This document shows, one piece after another, positions 3,803 to 61,425 of a stretch of DNA of 64,000 bases. The translations under genes and the position numbers were made by a program. A model generated the notes under the pieces. The model saw only the letters and a program-made list of their open reading frames with translations, was not told where the DNA came from and made no database searches. Position 1 is the stretch's first letter; every line of letters begins with the position of its first letter. The stretch is taken from assembly GCF_011089875.1 (NCBI RefSeq), contig NZ_JAANAS010000105.1:28343-92342 (forward strand), in the 5' to 3' direction. The DNA comes from Psychroflexus maritimus. GTDB lineage: Bacteria > Bacteroidota > Bacteroidia > Flavobacteriales > Flavobacteriaceae.

Positions 3803-4789
3803 ATGAAAACTAAAATGAACGCCCTTACCAAATGTTTTAGCCTAGGTGTTCTGCTATGTAGCCTTACCAGCCTAAAAGCACAAGTGGGAATAGGAACCAC
3901 CAATCCCGATGCCTCAGCTATCTTGGAGCTAGAAGCAACCGATAAAGGCTTTCTGCCGCCACGCTTATCTACTGCAGAACGGGACGCGATAAGCAACCCT
4001 GCGGAGGGCTTAATGATTTATAATACCGATAACAATTGTCTTGAATTTCGCAATGATACCTTTTGGATAAGTGCTTGCGATGGATCTGTTCAAACTGGTT
4101 CAATATCTGATTGTAATACGCCAGGTTTTATTCCACCATTTCTAGCGGCAGACCAGACTGAAATAGTTGATGTCACCAACCCTGTTACCGGAGACACCTG
4201 GATGGACAGAAACCTAGGGGCTTTTACTGCAGACCGCACAACCCCTAGTGCAGATGGCGGCACCGATTGCTGGGCGTATGGCAACCTATACCAATGGGGT
4301 AGAACTAGCGATGGGCATGAAGACCGCTCTTCTAATACTGCTGCTGGCCCCCTAGCTGCAGGAAGTGAGGGAAGTGATTTTATTACAGTTGCAAGCTCAC
4401 TTAATGATTGGTTATCTAATCCAGACAATACAAGATGGAATGCTGCTACAAAAGGCGTGCACGACCCTTGCCCTGAAGGCTATCGCGTACCAACACAAGC
4501 TGAATGGGAAGCCGAATGGGATTCTTGGGATGGCATTTTAGACAATATAGCGCCTCCTTCCGCTAATAACCACGCTGGTGGTGCTATTGCCTCACCGCTT
4601 AAATTGCCCGTAGCAGGAAGCCGGAGCCTCTCATCAGGTAGTCTCAGCGGTATTAGCTCCGACGGCCGTTATTGGTCTAGTACCGTTTCAGGCAACAATG
4701 CCATAAGGCTCTACTTCGATGGTTCTTCTGCCGATATGTTAACCAGCTTTCGTGCTTACGCTTTCTCCGTCCGCTGTATTAAAGATTAA
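3803..4789 (+). CDS. surface-cassette gene 1: secreted FISUMP-domain protein
   Basis: 328 residues. A signal peptide (about 1-26) ends before 'QVGIGTTNPDASA', the N-terminal module shared by all four cassette genes and by many Bacteroidota surface proteins. A FISUMP domain (Fibrobacter succinogenes major paralogue family, a C-type-lectin-like fold) spans about 115-328: 'GDTWMDRNLGA', 'WAYGNLYQWGR', 'HDPCPEGYRVPT', 'YWSST' and the terminal VRCIKD. It should act outside the cell, perhaps as a binding protein. The closest paralogue is gene 3; their bodies are nearly identical but the last 55 residues differ sharply. The start MKTKM is repeated in all four paralogues. No T9SS tail is present. A role in adhesion or ligand binding is inference. 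Confidence 0.85.
   Translation: MKTKMNALTKCFSLGVLLCSLTSLKAQVGIGTTNPDASAILELEATDKGFLPPRLSTAERDAISNPAEGLMIYNTDNNCLEFRNDTFWISACDGSVQTGSISDCNTPGFIPPFLAADQTEIVDVTNPVTGDTWMDRNLGAFTADRTTPSADGGTDCWAYGNLYQWGRTSDGHEDRSSNTAAGPLAAGSEGSDFITVASSLNDWLSNPDNTRWNAATKGVHDPCPEGYRVPTQAEWEAEWDSWDGILDNIAPPSANNHAGGAIASPLKLPVAGSRSLSSGSLSGISSDGRYWSSTVSGNNAIRLYFDGSSADMLTSFRAYAFSVRCIKD
4615..4786 (+). other. candidate DGR-type variable region, gene 1
   Basis: The 3' end of gene 1, from the codons after LPVAG to the VRCIKD tail. Compared with gene 3 it differs at many codons, most changed at first and/or second position with the third base kept, and it is bracketed by an identical YWSSTVSG core and an identical tail. 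This resembles the lectin-fold variable regions of diversity-generating retroelements, but no template repeat was found here. Confidence 0.45.
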
Positions 4790-4840
4790 GAATTAAGTAT
4801 TAACTAAAAAAAATAAAACCGATAACAAATAAAAACTAAA

Positions 4841-5977
4841 ATGAAAACTAAAATGAACACCACAAACGTAAAAACGCCCTTCCTACAGAGGGGTTGGGGG
4901 AGGCTCTTGCTCATGCTCGCCTTCATCGGCTTAAACACCGCCAACGCCCAAGTGGGAATAGGAACCACCAATCCCGATGCCTCAGCTATTTTAGAGCTAG
5001 AAGCAACCGACAAAGTTTTTTTGCCCCCACGGTTGACAACGGCACAGCGCGATGCTATCGCTTCTCCTGTAGTTGGATCAATGATTTACAATACCGACGA
5101 AAACTGCATGCAATGGTACGATAATAACGGTTGGTATGACGGATGCAGCGGTCCTACTTATGGTACGATTGCCTCACTAGACTGTGCAGGTGCAATTAAC
5201 AATGGTACGCTTACAGATGGAGAAGCAGCAGCTGGTGTAACTACTGTGATAGACTACACCGGCGGTAACGGTTTAAATCATTCTGGTCAAACGGTTAATT
5301 CTACTGGTGTTACGGGGCTTACTGCTACACTAGCCCCAGGAACTTTAGCCACTGGCGCAGGAAGCTTAACCTACACCATAAGCGGCACACCTGCAAGTGA
5401 TGGCACGGCTTCGTTTGCCATTAACATTGGCGGACAGACTTGTAGTTTAGAAAGAACTGTTATTCCACCTCCACCTCAAGTTGGAGATTTTAGAGAAGGC
5501 GGGGTTGTTTTTTACATTTTTGACAGTAATGATCCAGGATATGTGGCTGGAGAAACGCATGGCTTGGTAGCTGCTATAGAAGATCAAAGTTCTAGTGCTG
5601 AATGGGGATGCTACGGAACAAGCATTTCAGGAGCTGACGGTAATGGAATAGGCTCCGGTGCAGCTAATACTAGTGCTATTTTAGCCGATTGCTCACAGCC
5701 TGGCATAGCAGCCGAGCTTTGTGACAATTATACTGGTGGTGGTTATAGCGATTGGTTTCTACCTTCAATTGATGAATTGTCTTTAATGTATCAAAACAAG
5801 ACAACTATTGATGCTACCGCAGTGGCAAACGGAGGCAGCGGTTTTGCTAGTGCCTTCTATTTTAGTTCTACCGAGAGCGATGCCAACAACGCTTCGACTC
5901 AGAAATTCGACAATGGCAACCTGTTCAACTACCTTAAGCTCAACTCTTACAGTGTTCGTGCTGTTCGTGCTTTTTAA
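4841..5977 (+). CDS. surface-cassette gene 2: secreted protein with DUF1566-like C-terminal domain
   Basis: 378 residues. A signal peptide (about 1-36) precedes the shared VGIGTTNPDASA module (about 37-95). A Ser/Thr/Gly-rich beta domain follows (about 105-205), then a DUF1566-like lectin-fold domain (about 212-378) with 'GGVVFYIFDSNDPGYVAGE', 'EWGCYG', 'YSDWFLPSIDELSLM' and the ending VRAVRAF. The N-terminal module DNA is nearly identical to gene 1. The C-terminal domain is near-identical to gene 4 up to about residue 333, then diverges until the last seven residues. It lies 51 bp after gene 1, probably co-transcribed. ATG codons at 4841 and 4853 are both possible; the first matches the paralogues. 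Function beyond secretion is not known. Confidence 0.82.
   Translation: MKTKMNTTNVKTPFLQRGWGRLLLMLAFIGLNTANAQVGIGTTNPDASAILELEATDKVFLPPRLTTAQRDAIASPVVGSMIYNTDENCMQWYDNNGWYDGCSGPTYGTIASLDCAGAINNGTLTDGEAAAGVTTVIDYTGGNGLNHSGQTVNSTGVTGLTATLAPGTLATGAGSLTYTISGTPASDGTASFAINIGGQTCSLERTVIPPPPQVGDFREGGVVFYIFDSNDPGYVAGETHGLVAAIEDQSSSAEWGCYGTSISGADGNGIGSGAANTSAILADCSQPGIAAELCDNYTGGGYSDWFLPSIDELSLMYQNKTTIDATAVANGGSGFASAFYFSSTESDANNASTQKFDNGNLFNYLKLNSYSVRAVRAF
5841..5974 (+). other. candidate DGR-type variable region, gene 2
   Basis: The final 44 codons of gene 2. Of the 24 codons before the VRAVRAF tail, 18 end in C or T, and Asn, Tyr, Ser, Leu and Phe codons alternate with fixed Gln, Lys and Gly. This is the pattern expected if AAY codons in a template were randomised at their adenines. 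A hairpin follows directly (5977-6007). Confidence 0.5.
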
Positions 5978-6007
5978 ACCCAGTGAAACAAAAAGATTTC
6001 ACGGGTT
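5977..6007 (+). other. hairpin immediately after the gene 2 variable end
   Basis: An 11-bp stem (5977-5988 with 5997-6007, one bulged A) and an 8-base loop start at the stop codon of gene 2. No T run follows, so it is a poor terminator. In the Bordetella phage DGR a hairpin directly behind the variable region is needed for efficient targeting; that parallel is inference. Confidence 0.5.
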
Positions 6008-6073
6008 AAACCATTTATCCCGTTAGATATAAGTTATTTCTACCTATATGTTTTAAAGAGCGAAATAGTACAA

Positions 6074-6307
6074 AGTACAAAGAATAAAGAGTGAGTTATG
6101 AGATGTGAAGCGTAAAGAGTGAGAAATGATAAAAAATAAGAAATTACCTATGGGATGTTTTATACTAGATGGAAATCAGCTTTGCATTGCGAGAGGCATT
6201 CCACCTAAAATTTGAAATAACTCTGGTTAAGAGTCGGCAAACGACAGATTCACAGTTCACGCTTAACAGTTCAAAACAGATCACTGAAAACCGATAACAA
6301 ATAAAAA
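6074..6307 (+). repeat. duplicated intergenic segment, copy 1
   Basis: About 234 bp before gene 3 recur almost unchanged before gene 4 (7285-7519). The copies differ by scattered single bases. Both hold a 29-codon open frame (6126-6215 and 7338-7427; Ile/Val is the only change), but the duplication is too recent for this to prove coding. It probably carries the leader or promoter of gene 3 and is a substrate for recombination. I see no TAnnTTTG box in it. The preceding 6008-6073 holds nothing recognised. Confidence 0.8.
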
Positions 6308-7273
6308 ATGAAAACTAAAATGAAAACAAAACTATTAACCCTAGTAACGCTCGCCTTCATCGGCTTAAACACCGCCAACGCCCAAGTGGGAATAGGAACC
6401 ACCAATCCCGATGCCTCAGCAGCATTAGATGTAGTGGCAACCGATAAAGGTCTTTTGCCACCAAGGATGACGGAAGCCGAGCGCGATGCCATAAGCAACC
6501 CTGCGGAAGGCTTAATGATTTACAATACCGACGAAAACTGCATACAATTTTTTAAAGGTGTATGGTATGACACTTGTTCAGGTAGTCTAGTTATACCACC
6601 ATCAACAACTCAAAATTGTGATAATGTTCCTTTTCTAAGTGCTGATGAAACAGAGATTGTTGACGTCACCAACCCTGTTACCGGCGACACCTGGATGGAC
6701 AGAAACCTCGGAGCTTTTACAGCCGACCGATCTACGCCTAGTGCAGATGGCGGGACCGATTGCTGGGCGTATGGTAATCTATATCAATGGGGTAGAAATA
6801 GCGATGGGCATGAAGACCGTACTTCTAATACTAATGCTGGCCCTGTAGCTGCAGGAACTGAGGGAAGTGATTTTATTACAGTTGCAAGCTCTCCTTATGA
6901 TTGGTTATCTACTCAAGACGATACAAGATGGGGTAACCCAACCGATGCAGACAAAGGCGTGCACGACCCTTGCCCTGCTGGCTACCGCGTACCAACAGAA
7001 GCTGAATTGAACAATGAGCGTAGTTCCTGGACACAATCACCAATTAATAGCACTAACAACAGAGAAGGCGCCATTACCTCGCCACTTAAGTTGCCCGTAG
7101 CAGGCTACCGCAGCCGTACTGGTGGGCTCGGCGGTGTTGGCTCCAGCGGCTTCTATTGGTCTAGTACCGTTTCAGGCGCCAATGGCAGTCGCCTCAACTT
7201 CCCTAGTTCCGGTGCCAATATGGGCACTGGCGTTCGTGCTGGCGGTTTCCCTGTCCGTTGTATTAAAGATTAA
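6308..7273 (+). CDS. surface-cassette gene 3: secreted FISUMP-domain protein
   Basis: 321 residues. The layout is that of gene 1: signal peptide (about 1-25, ending NANA), VGIGTTNPDASA module (about 26-90), then a FISUMP domain (about 105-321) with 'TWMDRNLGA', 'WAYGNLYQWGR', 'HDPCPAGYRVPT', 'YWSST' and VRCIKD. The centre is almost the same as gene 1, the N-terminal module is closer to gene 4 (identical DNA across about 80 bases), and the C-terminal 55 residues are unlike gene 1. The gene is therefore a mosaic, consistent with module exchange between paralogues. It has an N-terminal double Met start like the others. Exported lectin-fold binding protein is the most that can be inferred. Confidence 0.85.
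   Translation: MKTKMKTKLLTLVTLAFIGLNTANAQVGIGTTNPDASAALDVVATDKGLLPPRMTEAERDAISNPAEGLMIYNTDENCIQFFKGVWYDTCSGSLVIPPSTTQNCDNVPFLSADETEIVDVTNPVTGDTWMDRNLGAFTADRSTPSADGGTDCWAYGNLYQWGRNSDGHEDRTSNTNAGPVAAGTEGSDFITVASSPYDWLSTQDDTRWGNPTDADKGVHDPCPAGYRVPTEAELNNERSSWTQSPINSTNNREGAITSPLKLPVAGYRSRTGGLGGVGSSGFYWSSTVSGANGSRLNFPSSGANMGTGVRAGGFPVRCIKD
7100..7270 (+). other. candidate DGR-type variable region, gene 3
   Basis: Counterpart of 4615-4786. Between the two, about 16 codons differ only at first or second positions (for example TAC/GGC, GAT/CCT, AAC/GCC, TCT/GGT), against about three purely synonymous changes. Gly and Asn residues dominate the changed sites here. Confidence 0.45.
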
Positions 7274-7284
7274 GAATAGTATTA

Positions 7285-7519
7285 AGTACAAAGAATAAAG
7301 AAGTGAATTATGAGATGTGAAGCGTAAAGAGTGAGAAATGATAAAAAATAAGAAATTACCTATGGGATGTTTTATACTAGATGGAAATCAGCTTTGCGTT
7401 GCGAGAGGCATTCCACCTAAAATTTGAAATAACTCTGGTTAAGAGTCGGCAAACGACAGATTCACAGTTCACGGTTGACAGTTCAGAACAGATCACTGAA
7501 AACCGATAACAAATAAAAA
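7285..7519 (+). repeat. duplicated intergenic segment, copy 2
   Basis: Near-identical to 6074-6307 and running into the same ATGAAAACTAAAATG start context. Its position between genes 3 and 4 shows that the unit 'leader plus gene start' was duplicated as a block. Confidence 0.8.
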
Positions 7520-8887
7520 ATGAAAACTAAAATGAAAACTAAAACTACTTTATTAAGCCTTTTATTGGTATTGATAGGATTAAATTTAGCAATAGCCCAA
7601 GTTGGAATTGGCACTACAACCCCAGATGCTTCAGCAGCATTAGATGTAGTGGCAACCGATAAAGGTCTTTTGCCACCAAGGATGACGGAAGCCGAGCGCG
7701 ATGCCATAAGCAACCCTACGGTTGGTTTGATGCTTTGGTGTAGCAATTGTGGTAGTAATGGAGAGATGCAGGCATATAATGGTAATGGATGGATGAGTAT
7801 GATTAGCGGAACAGCAAATCAACCATGGACGGTACCTGATGCGCCATTAATAGCTGGTGTAACCCCTGGAGTGGGTCAAGTAGAAATAACTTTTACGGCT
7901 CCCACTAATAATGGAGGAACACCTATCACATCTTATACCGCTACATCAAATCCTGGGGGTATTACTGCTTCGGTACAGCAGGCAGGAGGCGGCACAATTA
8001 CAGTAACCGGCCTTACCAATGGTACAGCCTACACCTTTACCCTAACCGCCACCAATAGCATAGGAACAAGCGCTGCTAGCGCGGCTTCCAATGCTGTAAC
8101 ACCGGGTAATGTTCCAGATACACCAAATATAACAAATGTAACAGCAAGTAATGCTCAGGCAGAAATAACTTTTACGGCTCCCGCTAATAATGGAGGAACA
8201 CCTATCACATCTTATACCGCTACATCAAATCCTGAGGGTATTACTGCTTCGGTACAGCAGGCAGGAGGCGGTACAATTACAGTAACCGGCCTTACCAATG
8301 GCACAGCCTACACTTTTACCCTAACCGCCACCAATAGCATAGGAACAAGCGCTGCTAGTATGCCTTCCAATGCTGTAACACCTAATTTATCGGTTGGAGA
8401 TTACCATGAAGGTGGAGTTGTTTTTTATATTTTTGACAGTAATGATCCAGGATATGTGGCTGGAGAAACGCATGGTTTGGTAGCTGCTATAGAAGATCAA
8501 AGTTCAGGAGCTGAATGGGGATGCTACAATACAAGTATTTCAGGAGCTGATGGTAATGGAATAGGCTCCGGTGCAGCTAATACTAGTGCTATTTTAGCCG
8601 ATTGCTCAGAGTCTGGCATAGCAGCCGAGCTTTGTGACAATTATACTGGTGGTGGTTACAGCGATTGGTTTCTACCTTCAATAGATGAATTGTCTTTAAT
8701 GTCTCAAAACAGGACAACTATTAACACCACCGCCGTGGCAAACGGAGGTACCGATGTTAGTGGAGAATATTGGAGTAGTACGCAGCAAAATGCCGAGTTC
8801 GGGTACATCAGAAACTTATCCGGTGGCGGTCAGAGCTCAAACTACAAGTCATATTATAAAAAGGTTCGTGCGGTTCGTGCTTTTTAA
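7520..8887 (+). CDS. surface-cassette gene 4: secreted protein with two FnIII domains and DUF1566-like C-terminal domain
   Basis: 455 residues. A signal peptide (about 1-26) and the VGIGTTTPDASA module (about 27-75) are followed by two fibronectin type III domains (about 103-195 and 196-290), almost identical to each other. A DUF1566-like domain follows (about 293-455) with 'GGVVFYIFDSNDPGYVAGE', 'YSDWFLPSIDELSLM', 'EYWSST' and the tail VRAVRAF. The C-terminal domain is a close copy of gene 2 until about residue 410, then unlike it. FnIII domains probably act as spacers holding the lectin-like domain away from the cell. It lies 20 bp before the thioredoxin-like gene. Exported; ligand unknown. 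Confidence 0.85.
   Translation: MKTKMKTKTTLLSLLLVLIGLNLAIAQVGIGTTTPDASAALDVVATDKGLLPPRMTEAERDAISNPTVGLMLWCSNCGSNGEMQAYNGNGWMSMISGTANQPWTVPDAPLIAGVTPGVGQVEITFTAPTNNGGTPITSYTATSNPGGITASVQQAGGGTITVTGLTNGTAYTFTLTATNSIGTSAASAASNAVTPGNVPDTPNITNVTASNAQAEITFTAPANNGGTPITSYTATSNPEGITASVQQAGGGTITVTGLTNGTAYTFTLTATNSIGTSAASMPSNAVTPNLSVGDYHEGGVVFYIFDSNDPGYVAGETHGLVAAIEDQSSGAEWGCYNTSISGADGNGIGSGAANTSAILADCSESGIAAELCDNYTGGGYSDWFLPSIDELSLMSQNRTTINTTAVANGGTDVSGEYWSSTQQNAEFGYIRNLSGGGQSSNYKSYYKKVRAVRAF
7882..8382 (+). repeat. tandem duplication encoding the two FnIII domains
   Basis: Positions 7882-8103 and 8161-8382 are 222-bp copies at a 279-bp offset, differing at only a few bases. The duplication is recent and can expand or contract by recombination. 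Confidence 0.85.
8743..8884 (+). other. candidate DGR-type variable region, gene 4
   Basis: Counterpart of 5841-5974, bounded by the same VRAVRAF-coding tail. Unlike gene 2, several third positions here are A or G (CAA, TCA, GGA, AGA), so it fits the adenine-mutagenesis model less well. It may be an ancestral or differently templated version. Confidence 0.35.
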
Positions 8888-8907: not shown

Positions 8908-10302
8908 ATGAACAGCATAAACGTACTTAACCTTAAACCATTATTTGCTCTTGCACTGCTTTTTATTTTCTCAAAAAGTTTTGCGCAAGAAATTAGTGGT
9001 CAATTAACGGCAGTACCTAATCAAAGCATCCTGCTTAAGGGGTTTAATGGTTTAGACACCTATGTTATAGACAGCACACAAACCGATGCAGATGGGCGTT
9101 TTGTGCTTGAGTTTGCTCCCAAAGATTACGGCATGGGCTTATTAATTCCCGAAAATAACAAGTCGTTTCTAGCTGTTTTAGGGAAAGAAATGGTTAAACT
9201 AAACGGAGAAAACACAAGCTTACCTGAAAGTATTCAAATCAGTAAAGGTGCTCAAAACAAAGCGTTTATGCAATATGCTAGGCAACAGCCCAAACGTGAG
9301 CAAGCCTTAAGTGCTTGGGAGTATTTGCAAAAAATCTATACAGAAGAAGCTATTTTCAAAAAAGAAAAAGCAGCCCTAAGCGCTATAGAAAAAGAAATAC
9401 AACACATCTACAGTAGTGAGCAAGAATTCTTGGATAAATTACCCTCAGATAGTTACCTAAGTTGGTACATCCCGGTACGTAAATTACTAAGCAGTGTAGC
9501 TCAAGTTGCGCAATACCGCCCAGAAGAAATTCCAGCCACACGCCAAGCGCTCCAAAACTTAGATTATGCCGATGAACGTTTGTACACAAGTGGTTTGTTG
9601 AAAGAGGCTATAGAAAACCACGTGTGGTTCATCGAAAACAGTAGTGGTGCATTGGATCAGGTTTTTGCCGATTTAAATGAATCGATTGACCTTATGCTTG
9701 CGCAGTTAATACATGATGAAGCCAAGTACAATACGCTAACCGAATACCTCTTTAACCTACTCGAAAAAAGAAGCCTATTTACCTCAGCTGAATATCTGGC
9801 GTTAAAAGTATTAAACGAGCAAAGCTGCAGCTTAAATGACGATGTGGCTAAGCAATTGGAAAGCTACCGCCAAATGAAAAAAGGCAATACGGCACCTGAT
9901 ATTCGTTTTGGCCAATACACCTACTTCCCGGAAGGGATGAAGGCTGCTTCCTTAAAAGAAATTGACGCCACCTATAAAGTAGTAGTCTTTGCTGCCGGTT
10001 GGTGTGGGCACTGCAGAGAACAAACTCCACAATTAGTGGAGCATTACACCGCTTGGAAAGACAAAGCTGTTGAAGTGGTGTTGGTTTCGCTAGACGAAAA
10101 CACCACTGATTTCGTTAATTTTACAGGCGCTTTGCCCTTTGTATCGACTACTACATTAAAGAAATGGGACACCAAAGCAGCACAAGATTATCACATCTAT
10201 GCCACGCCCTCCTACTTCTTACTTGATAAAGATTTGAAAATAATTTTAAAACCTAAAAACTTAGCACACTTAAACGCTTATATACAACAACTCAAAAATT
10301 AA
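8908..10302 (+). CDS. exported thioredoxin-like (TlpA/ResA-type) protein with N-terminal DUF4369-like domain
   Basis: 464 residues. A signal peptide (about 1-26) is followed by a DUF4369-like beta domain (about 28-125), a long helical region (about 125-325) and a C-terminal thioredoxin fold (about 328-464). The redox motif is WCGHC (Cys366 and Cys369), and the cis-proline is in 'YATPSYFLLD'. Such proteins reduce or oxidise disulfides of exported proteins in the periplasm. CGHC is the motif of disulfide isomerases rather than of ordinary thioredoxin. It sits between the Cys-containing FISUMP/DUF1566 proteins and a T9SS substrate with 10-20 bp gaps, so folding of those surface proteins is a reasonable but unproven role. 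Confidence 0.85.
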   Translation: MNSINVLNLKPLFALALLFIFSKSFAQEISGQLTAVPNQSILLKGFNGLDTYVIDSTQTDADGRFVLEFAPKDYGMGLLIPENNKSFLAVLGKEMVKLNGENTSLPESIQISKGAQNKAFMQYARQQPKREQALSAWEYLQKIYTEEAIFKKEKAALSAIEKEIQHIYSSEQEFLDKLPSDSYLSWYIPVRKLLSSVAQVAQYRPEEIPATRQALQNLDYADERLYTSGLLKEAIENHVWFIENSSGALDQVFADLNESIDLMLAQLIHDEAKYNTLTEYLFNLLEKRSLFTSAEYLALKVLNEQSCSLNDDVAKQLESYRQMKKGNTAPDIRFGQYTYFPEGMKAASLKEIDATYKVVVFAAGWCGHCREQTPQLVEHYTAWKDKAVEVVLVSLDENTTDFVNFTGALPFVSTTTLKKWDTKAAQDYHIYATPSYFLLDKDLKIILKPKNLAHLNAYIQQLKN

Positions 10303-12522: not shown

Positions 12523-12675
12523 ATGATTAAACGATTAAAAAAATTGACGTGGATTGATATTGTGCTGTATCTATTGTACCTTATCATTGCCATTATTCTA
12601 GTCAATATTGTCTTGCTAGTTAAGGAGGAAATGCGACTTCAAGAAGAGCTTGAATTGCTAAGGCAAAGCAGGTAA
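12523..12675 (+). CDS. 50-residue small membrane protein
   Basis: ATG at 12523, three bases after the stop of the preceding small gene, TAA at 12673-12675. The product has a basic N-terminus (KRLKK), one transmembrane helix (about 11-34) and a charged amphipathic tail (EEMRLQEELELLRQ), so it should sit with the tail on one membrane face. A truncated copy with 78 of 88 matching bases at 253-340 argues that the reading frame is a real gene. It is followed by a strong terminator, making it the last gene of the surface cassette. Family not recognised; it may assist the PID-CTERM-like neighbour, which is inference. Confidence 0.6.
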   Translation: MIKRLKKLTWIDIVLYLLYLIIAIILVNIVLLVKEEMRLQEELELLRQSR

Positions 12676-12708
12676 AGCAACAATTTGTTTTAATTTGGTT
12701 TTCAGAAG

Positions 12709-60024: not shown

Positions 60025-61425
60025 ATGAAATATCAACATTACTTAGCCTCATTTTTGATTTTGCTTGTCTTTAATACAGGCTTCAGTCAATTAAATGAAG
60101 ACAGAAGATGGTCTATAACAGTAGGTACTAATGTGGTTGATTTTTTTCCTACGGGAAATGGCTCCAACCCAGCTTTTATATCTCCTCAACAATCTAGCGA
60201 AAACTTGTTTCAAGATTTTCTACAAACCGATAACTGGAACTTTTACTCGGCTATGAGTACATTAAAAGTTGGTTATTATGTGGGAGACAACCTAAGCTTT
60301 AGAGGAGGTTTTTCCATGAATAAAATTGAGCGTATTGGGCAAGATGTCCTTCCCGACGATTTATCTTTTTACGCGTTTGATGGAGAGTTAATTTACAGTT
60401 TAAATTCCTTAATGAAAGAAGAGACTTGGTTTGACCCTTATTTTGGTGCCGGACTTGGTCATCATTGGTTAGATTCTTCAAATACTACTACATGGAATGC
60501 TCTAGTAGGTTTTAATTTTTGGATTAAAGAAAATATTGCCCTTACTGTAGAGTCAGGTTACAGAAATACTTTTGAAGAAACAAATTTCGACTATTTTCAA
60601 CATACCGCTGGAGTAACTTTTGGTTTTGGAGGAAATACTGACCGCGATGATGATGGCGTTCCTAATCGTGAAGATGATTGCCCAGATGAAGCAGGTTTAC
60701 CTGAGTTTAATGGATGCCCCGATACCGACGGCGATGGCATTCCAGACCATTTAGATGAATGTCCTGAAGAAGAAGGACCTGAAGAAAATAAGGGCTGCCC
60801 TTGGCCAGACACTGATGGAGACGGAGTTCCAGACCACTTAGATGAATGCCCTGATGAGGCTGGTTTAGCTGAGTTTGATGGTTGTCCAGATGCAGATGCA
60901 GATGGCATTCCAGATTATTTAGACCAATGCCCTGAAGAAGAAGGACCAAAAGAAAACGATGGTTGTCCTTGGCCTGATTCTGATGCAGATGGCGTGCCTG
61001 ATAAAGATGACTTATGTCCAGATGAACCGGGTACAGTTGAAAATCAAGGTTGTCCTGATATTACTGAGGAAGAGCAGAAGCAACTCAATGAGTTCGCAAA
61101 AACATTAAACTTTGAAAGTGGTAAGTCTAGAATTACAGACTACTCCAAAAATATTATAAACACAAAGGTATTACCAAAACTTAAGGAGTTCCCTAATGCT
61201 AAGTTTATTGTTGAAGGTCATACAGATAGCACAGGAAGTAATGCTATAAACCTGAGACTCTCTAAAGAACGAGCGGCCGCAGTAAAAGATTATTTAATTG
61301 AAAATGGTATAGCGAAGTCTAGACTTAGCTCTGAAGGTTATGGTTCTGCTAAACCAATAGCAAGCAATAAAACTAACGATGGAAGGAAAAAGAACAGAAG
61401 GGTTGAAATTAACCTTGTAAAGTAA
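60025..61425 (+). CDS. OmpA-family outer membrane protein with thrombospondin type 3 repeats
   Basis: 466 residues. A signal peptide (about 1-21) is followed by an N-terminal small beta barrel (about 25-200, ending in an aromatic-rich strand), then about five Asp-rich thrombospondin type 3 calcium-binding repeats (about 207-345, pattern DxDxDGxPDxxDxCPxE), and a peptidoglycan-binding OmpA domain (about 355-466) with 'FIVEGHTDSTGSNAINLRLS' in two parts and 'KNRRVEINL'. It tethers the outer membrane to the cell wall. The repeat DNA is recombination-prone. Monocistronic, with a clear terminator. Confidence 0.93.
   Translation: MKYQHYLASFLILLVFNTGFSQLNEDRRWSITVGTNVVDFFPTGNGSNPAFISPQQSSENLFQDFLQTDNWNFYSAMSTLKVGYYVGDNLSFRGGFSMNKIERIGQDVLPDDLSFYAFDGELIYSLNSLMKEETWFDPYFGAGLGHHWLDSSNTTTWNALVGFNFWIKENIALTVESGYRNTFEETNFDYFQHTAGVTFGFGGNTDRDDDGVPNREDDCPDEAGLPEFNGCPDTDGDGIPDHLDECPEEEGPEENKGCPWPDTDGDGVPDHLDECPDEAGLAEFDGCPDADADGIPDYLDQCPEEEGPKENDGCPWPDSDADGVPDKDDLCPDEPGTVENQGCPDITEEEQKQLNEFAKTLNFESGKSRITDYSKNIINTKVLPKLKEFPNAKFIVEGHTDSTGSNAINLRLSKERAAAVKDYLIENGIAKSRLSSEGYGSAKPIASNKTNDGRKKNRRVEINLVK

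Follow-up and report, generated by a model that had tools for sequence, protein, structure and literature searches.

Probable leftover targets of a lost diversity-generating retroelement in a FISUMP and Lcl_C gene array of Psychroflexus maritimus

The targets of a diversity-generating retroelement (DGR) can be found where the element itself is missing. According to parts of PMC4891356, Treponema denticola isolates that hold neither reverse transcriptase (RT) nor template repeat (TR) keep leftover DGR targets. FISUMP (Fib_succ_major) and DUF1566 are named as DGR target domains in sections of PMC4159848, PMC8143477 and PMC8934634. Here we describe a window, meaning the whole analysed stretch of 64,000 nucleotides, from Psychroflexus maritimus (contig NZ_JAANAS010000105.1, positions 28,343 to 92,342 of the forward strand). 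Between 3803 and 8887 on the + strand it contains four genes whose C-termini alternate between FISUMP (g1 and g3) and Lcl_C, that is DUF1566 (g2 and g4). We conclude that g1–g3 are probably leftover targets of a DGR that has since been lost from the lineage, and that they persist as frozen variants. The features concerned are given below, where NNY stands for codons ending in a pyrimidine (Y).

3803..4789, + strand: gene 1 (g1), open reading frame (ORF) with a C-terminal FISUMP (Fib_succ_major) domain; TIGR02145 47.7 bits, above the cut-off of 41.65
4511..4600, + strand: g1 stretch upstream of the variable region, differing from g3 at all codon positions and by indels; not DGR-like
4616..4765, + strand: g1 variable region (VR); its NNY codon scar, z=3.0 over the last 57 codons, falls short of that in g3
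4766..4789, + strand: g1 tail, VRCIKD-stop, near-fixed in the comparison with g3
4841..5977, + strand: gene 2 (g2), C-terminal Lcl_C (DUF1566) domain; PF07603 40.0 bits, above the cut-off of 34.9
5838..5977, + strand: g2 VR, matched over 140 bases by the Mesohalobacter halotolerans DGR template, whose adenines account for most of the mismatches
6308..7273, + strand: gene 3 (g3), C-terminal FISUMP domain; TIGR02145 37.8 bits, below 41.65, and PF09603 21.7 bits, below 33.9
7103..7249, + strand: g3 VR, where the NNY scar is strongest (z=5.2; NNY in 51 of the last 57 codons)
7520..8887, + strand: gene 4 (g4), fn3-like repeats and a C-terminal Lcl_C domain
8749..8887, + strand: C-terminal stretch of g4, differing from g2 at all codon positions, misfitting the known template and carrying no NNY scar

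The key comparison is with the congener M. halotolerans WDS2C27 (genome G006, family Flavobacteriaceae). This species holds a complete DGR (L052/L141, G006:C1:382013-385705) with an Lcl_C target, an Avd-like protein, the template and an RT with the SQ motif (GLPIGNLTSQ) in a row. When 27 genomes of the genus were queried with a DGR RT, G006 gave the one full match; its standing as sole DGR RT of the genus is based on this query (E<=1e-10) and not on motif reading, which covered 30 of 48 RT matches (leaving 18 from G019 and G025) and gave no classable motif for L054, L055, L056, L062 and L063. Compared with the M. halotolerans template, g2 is mismatched at 22 of 53 adenines and at 7 of 86 other bases (p=4e-6), and six templates from other genomes all give an adenine excess (p 2.8e-5 to 3.5e-6). 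When these six templates are paired among themselves, no adenine excess reaches significance (p 0.14 or more). All six agree at 126 sites, and of these g2 has changed 17/46 adenines versus 5/80 other bases. Templates compared with their own VRs, as positive controls, differ at 19/53 adenines versus 0/88 others in G006 and at 16/49 versus 3/79 in G213, while the negative control, the G006 template against the G213 template, differs at 4/49 adenines versus 15/82 other bases. In these tests sites are treated as independent and the places were found by template search, so that the p-values are indicative. Gene g2 thus carries a DGR-type adenine-specific footprint.

A codon that derives from AAY by adenine changes is always NNY. 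In g2, the pyrimidine third base is kept in 9/9 AAY codons changed at positions 1 or 2, and summed over 14 places it is kept in 158/162; some of these places share ancestry, so not all are independent, and one lies in the RT-bearing G213. The sum omits L207, where TR and VR are both present and which is shown apart, and L218, which has the same places as L213. This third-base result is not explained by the template-based finding of the places. The same footprint is seen in a gene on contig C52 of the P. maritimus genome (26/53 adenines versus 12/91 others of the M. halotolerans template), in G021 (22/53 versus 10/93) and in an apparently broken target gene of G010 (23/48 versus 4/57), a genome without an RVT_1 match. 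Over the matched stretch, L210 (G344) and L212 (G064), from different genera, show the same adenine-scarred variable residues, and L213 (G149) and L214 (G340), from one genus, show nearly the same ones, as if frozen variants had been inherited or exchanged.

The structure model of the g2 domain (predicted local distance difference test, pLDDT, 96.2) is consistent with a target domain. Its best match in the PDB is the C-terminal domain of Legionella Lcl (8q4e; Z 16.1, root-mean-square deviation (rmsd) 1.7, 116 residues aligned, 38% identity), and it also matches BACOVA_04982 (4eps; Z 14.6, rmsd 2.8, 161 residues, 22% identity) and Bdellovibrio Bd2740 (Z 10.3, rmsd 2.6, 98 residues), with C-type lectins next. 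The domain is therefore predicted to adopt a C-type-lectin-like fold, and g2 combines what is expected of a DGR target: a C-terminal VR, a fixed tail and a predicted C-type-lectin fold. Mtd and TvpA are absent among the listed fold matches for g2, which says nothing against kinship. The g3 domain model (pLDDT 38) is unusable.

For g1 and g3, the evidence lies in the codons. A preliminary description of this DNA had presented them as paralogues that share the end VRCIKD, are almost identical in their centres and diverge in their C-termini mainly at codon positions 1 and 2, and alignment bears this out. Codon positions 1, 2 and 3 diverge at 7/94, 7/94 and 18/93 (0.07/0.07/0.19) in the centre (4160-4440), at 19/48, 12/49 and 11/49 (0.40/0.24/0.22) in the variable region (4617-4765, about 49 codons) and at 1/8, 0/8 and 2/8 in the tail (4766-4789). 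Since position 3 of the variable region resembles the centre, the rise is confined to positions 1 and 2. Among 56 aligned C-terminal codon pairs, the amino acid differs in 23 and 33 count as shared. The third base is kept in 16 of the 23 amino-acid-changing pairs and changed in 7, in agreement with the earlier estimate of about 16 codons changed at positions 1 and 2 only. Purely synonymous third-base pairs are few, as had been described, but they number five instead of about three (one at the upstream edge, one in the tail), and the pair AGG/CGC, synonymous with two base changes, comes in addition. The described pattern fits the variable region but not 4511-4600 just upstream, which has diverged at all positions. 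As proof of a DGR, the bias towards positions 1 and 2 was rejected, since diversifying selection produces the same bias.

We therefore rely on a template-free test, in which the NNY content of the last 57 codons is compared with the expectation from amino acids and local codon usage and expressed in z units. The test was run without ORFs of <200 codons, L174 (cut by a contig end) and L077 and L183 (same gene as L018). The scar amounts to z=3.0 in g1, 3.0 in g2, 5.2 in g3 and 0.9 in g4, compared with 0.1, 0.2, -0.1 and -2.2 in the rest of the respective genes. As background, 14,396 overlapping stretches were taken from 30 further ORFs in the window; 0.06% of them reach 2.9, with a maximum of 3.11, and 0/30 C-termini reach 2.9. 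With this background maximum, g3 lies past all background, and g1 and g2 lie at its extreme edge. Five FISUMP orthologues conserved between species of the genus, taken as negative controls, give z of -1.4, 0.4, -0.4, 0.1 and -0.4. Other genes of the genus range widely: one FISUMP gene of G010 reaches 4.9 and one of G006 3.4, the copies in G015 range from -2.1 to 1.4, and contig C71 of P. maritimus gives 1.4. For calibration over the last 48 codons, 33 FISUMP/Lcl_C ORFs were chosen by their presence in loci with a DGR-like RT, not by an individually matched template; 17 of these reach z of at least 2, versus 3/320 stretches of the same genes and 6/151 other C-termini. The test is therefore fairly specific and misses about half.

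In g3, the scar is also seen at the variable codons themselves. NNY is found in 22/23 of them where 14.9 are expected (p=3e-4), and at the columns where FISUMP-type templates have asparagine, 18/19 non-asparagine codons of g3 end in Y (p=0.009 versus controls). At the third base of the scar region of g3, C and T gain and G drops from 0.12 to 0.05, so the region does not reflect mere GC-rich import. The residues K, E, Q, M and W are absent from all 23 variable positions in both g1 and g3 (p=0.002 each versus window genes). The case for a DGR origin of g1 and g3 is indirect, drawing on the template-free codon test and on FISUMP as a reported target domain. A DGR is the likeliest cause of their pattern, but a vanished one.

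The machinery was searched for in the P. maritimus genome, a draft of 2.59 Mb in 126 contigs that is 99.97% complete. RVT_1 is matched by a single protein, a group II intron maturase with a GIIM domain (404 bits for TIGR04416, above the cut-off of 300). This protein carries GTPQGG at the site of the SQ motif of DGR RTs. A true DGR RT as query found nothing in the genome beyond this maturase gene. For Avd, the best genome match to NF033474 reaches 18 bits against a cut-off of 80, and only chance-level matches (E 0.9 or more) were found in the window and in selected stretches of the genome. Blastn of the genome with the VRs of g1 and g3 and with the G006 TR returned target genes and short chance matches only; the VRs of g2 and g4 were compared with selected stretches. 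An active DGR within the genome was rejected, as no DGR-type RT, Avd or template was found in the draft. The preliminary description had proposed a retroelement acting now from elsewhere in the genome, to be sought through an RT with the SQ motif and a near-copy of the g1/g3 variable regions outside coding sequence. This proposal finds no support: in the draft, the first search leads to the maturase and the second to no template, and the third positions of g1 and g3 are not reset. That description had a closed genome in mind for its refutation, whereas the 126 contigs are a draft, and such an absence would speak against an active and not against a past DGR. A DGR-type scar in variable regions of this DNA is supported, for g2 by the six templates and for g3, more than for g1, by the codon test, while an active DGR is not. 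The same description left genes 2 and 4 unnamed, and the clearest DGR footprint is that of g2.

The variable regions of g2, g3 and, less surely, g1 would have been rewritten in the past by a DGR. Mutagenic reverse transcription of an AAY (asparagine)-rich template would have changed adenines to any base, and the product would have been pasted over the C-terminal stretch. RT, Avd and template would later have been lost from the lineage, or would have worked from a mobile element or prior to the arrival of the genes. The variants would now be frozen and drift as ordinary sequence, with duplication and recombination still reshaping the array. The third positions of g1 and g3 have diverged like the centre, so there has been no recent overwriting of both from one template; together with the 5/80 non-adenine changes of g2, they point to drift since the last rewriting. 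Presumably g1 and g3 had a FISUMP-type template of their own, the machinery is missing through loss and not through an assembly gap, and the proteins of g1–g4 may bind variable ligands.

Several observations weigh against this reading. Gene g4 has no NNY scar (z=0.9) and misfits the G006 template, with differences at 27/53 adenines and 33/86 other bases (p=0.1); with the G213 template the counts are 28/50 and 32/81 (p=0.048). Between g1 and g3, the stretch 4511-4600 differs at 11/25, 11/25 and 15/25 of positions 1, 2 and 3 and by indels, which is not explained by a DGR and needs another process. The 23 variable codons of g1 hold NNY in 20/23 where 17.3 are expected, which is not significant (p=0.098), and at the template-asparagine columns g1 has Y in 17/22 compared with 65/97 in five controls (p=0.25), so that this column test is good for g3 and not decisive for g1. 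The 33 codons common to both genes are just as rich in NNY (26 in g1 and 29 in g3, expected 19.3), and the bias thus marks the whole region and not the changed codons alone. Compared with the rest of the same genes, which are also poor in K, E, Q, M and W, the absence of these residues gives only p=0.037 and 0.031. Five FISUMP copies in the DGR locus L137 have z of -0.2 to 1.4, known cases that the scar test misses. A search of 80 DGR loci and of L052, L080, L083 and L084 at the DNA level gave no template for g1/g3; FISUMP-type templates do exist (e.g. L117, L164, L135) but are too distant from g1/g3 at this level. Finally, the assembly has 126 contigs, one of which, C58 (G000:C58:2-664, L174), breaks off within a FISUMP gene ahead of the variable region, and a small missing contig might hold the absent machinery. 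The contig end could mark population variation or a repeat.

Diversifying selection with gene conversion between paralogues, with no retroelement ever involved, is a rival explanation of g1 and g3. A rise at positions 1 and 2 with position 3 at background level can come from selection alone, the third-base evidence of g1 is weak at the variable codons, tandem duplication is evident, and g4 and 4511-4600 have diverged in a non-DGR manner. It does not, however, predict an NNY bias that is conditioned on amino acids and confined to the C-terminal region of g1 and g3, nor the missing K, E, Q, M and W at all 23 variable positions, although the latter is weaker against the same genes. Because this absence is weaker against the composition of the genes themselves and the shared codons are as NNY-rich as the variable ones, we lowered our confidence in leftover DGR targets and raised that in pure selection slightly, and selection is still an improbable explanation of g1 and g3; for g2, the adenine footprint practically excludes it. 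An active DGR that still acts in trans, encoded on a plasmid, on a phage or in genome sequence missing from the assembly, would agree with the draft state of the assembly and the end of C58 inside a FISUMP gene, with the complete DGR of the congener M. halotolerans, and with FISUMP genes accompanied by a DGR-like RT in 2/16 viral loci (L188 and L196, the one in L188 with an internal stop). The near-complete genome whose sole RVT_1 match is a group II maturase, with nothing added by the DGR RT query, speaks against it, as do the third positions of g1/g3, which are not reset, and the changes of g2 at 5/80 non-adenine sites invariant across six templates, and we consider such an element very unlikely.

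The genes may instead have been imported already diversified, from phages or DGR-bearing Bacteroidota, and never mutated in this lineage, an idea that partly coincides with the fossil reading and forms a variant of it. DGR targets of Geofilum and of a Marinilabiliaceae metagenome-assembled genome (MAG) match the C52 target at 95-96% identity over 75-78 bases, located where the template match of C52 starts and just upstream of that point; a viral-contig gene has a similar N-terminal module and is 49% identical to the g3 domain, and MAGs from other orders hold RTs with 84% identity to that of M. halotolerans. These likenesses are set against the FISUMP gene of G010, which stands beside the same neighbour as the array and suggests that the locus is old in the genus. 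We regard import as a possible but on balance doubtful origin and retain g1–g3 as probable leftovers of a vanished DGR.

The remaining features of the array concern its growth.

6090..6331, + strand: 242-base repeat, copy 1, before g3 and into its start, 98% identical to copy 2
7302..7543, + strand: 242-base repeat, copy 2, before g4
8908..10302, + strand: downstream gene, thioredoxin-like by eye only

All four genes have a common N-terminal module ahead of their C-terminal domains. The PF09603 score of g1 (31.5 bits in the profile search) is slightly below the cut-off of 33.9. A repeat finder paired 300-base central stretches of g1 with g3 (87% identity) and of g2 with g4 (93%), and full-length copies of the 242-base repeat occur in the genome in this array only. 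From the paired centres and the repeat, duplication of a two-gene unit is the most likely origin of the array, and g1–g4 are probably a tandem-duplicated pair of FISUMP and Lcl_C proteins, presumably at the cell surface. After its centre, g4 diverges abruptly from g2 in an unscarred C-terminus, which was perhaps swapped from another source. The downstream gene has a close relative in the congener G010, where it follows a FISUMP gene (locus L013). A 100-base repeat (253-352 and 12602-12701, 86% identical) flanks the array on both sides, and a 168-base unit is present in two tandem copies (76% identical) at 60646-60981.

Among 397 genomes of the family, DNA similar to the M. halotolerans template is present in 11 and an RT close to that of G006 (E<=1e-30) in 3, split into two reading frames in 2. 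Only G213 combines the close RT with template-like DNA (1/11), more distant DGR RTs being possible in the others. Frozen targets may therefore outnumber live cassettes of this type. Two DGRs of the family, L083 (G097) and L084 (G293), have templates of FISUMP type and an RT gene broken into two reading frames, and are apparently in decay. With RTs of Chitinophagaceae and Bacteroidales MAGs the M. halotolerans RT shares 84% identity, but with that of G213, from its own family, 59%, which suggests that this DGR may have moved by horizontal transfer. In viral contigs, 45 stretches matched the pattern in a search by RT alignment and none was confirmed; a search by FISUMP C-terminus gave 16 loci, with an RT in 2 within the stretches examined, and viral records searched whole held an RT in 1/7. 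Annotated phages queried with g3 gave one match, to the N-terminal part only. A viral FISUMP gene (L186:3296-4189, IMGVR_UViG_3300007609_000046) has an N-terminal module like that of g1/g3 and NNY z=4.0 in the last 57 codons (rest 2.0), in a record without a DGR RT match.

Past DGR action can thus be read where the machine is no longer found, and partly without a template, from a regional third-base bias. According to parts of PMC8144416, its approach would miss targets that do not adjoin an RT; surveys anchored on RTs overlook targets such as g1–g3. Beyond that, it is conceivable, though a long shot, that flavobacteria hold DGR-ready lectin arrays through which mobile DGRs pass, rewrite and vanish, with a FISUMP and Lcl_C unit served by two templates. 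If true, the host would inherit banks of frozen variants, and the template-free scar would map ghost diversification in any genome.

A literature search found nothing on DGR leftovers in this genus, which is no proof of absence, and the closest comparisons come from other systems. The gut-metagenome and Bacteroides-phage DGRs in sections of PMC4159848 and PMC8143477 have the same two target domains together with RT and TR, neither of which was found here. Legionella Lcl (8q4e) and BACOVA_04982 (4eps) resemble the predicted fold of the g2 domain, with an identity of only 38% and 22% over the aligned residues. The template of the M. halotolerans DGR matches g2 and the C52 gene at most non-adenine sites; the cassette is complete there, whereas only targets are present here. 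The parts of PMC4891356 on T. denticola describe what we observe here, variable regions that differ from the TR of a relative mostly at adenines in genomes without RT and TR, and read them as leftovers of a lost DGR. As far as those parts go, our case differs in that the relative is another species of the genus, that the targets form a tandem FISUMP/Lcl_C array, and that g1 and g3 are without a known template. The array is a fresh instance of a kind already known from T. denticola.

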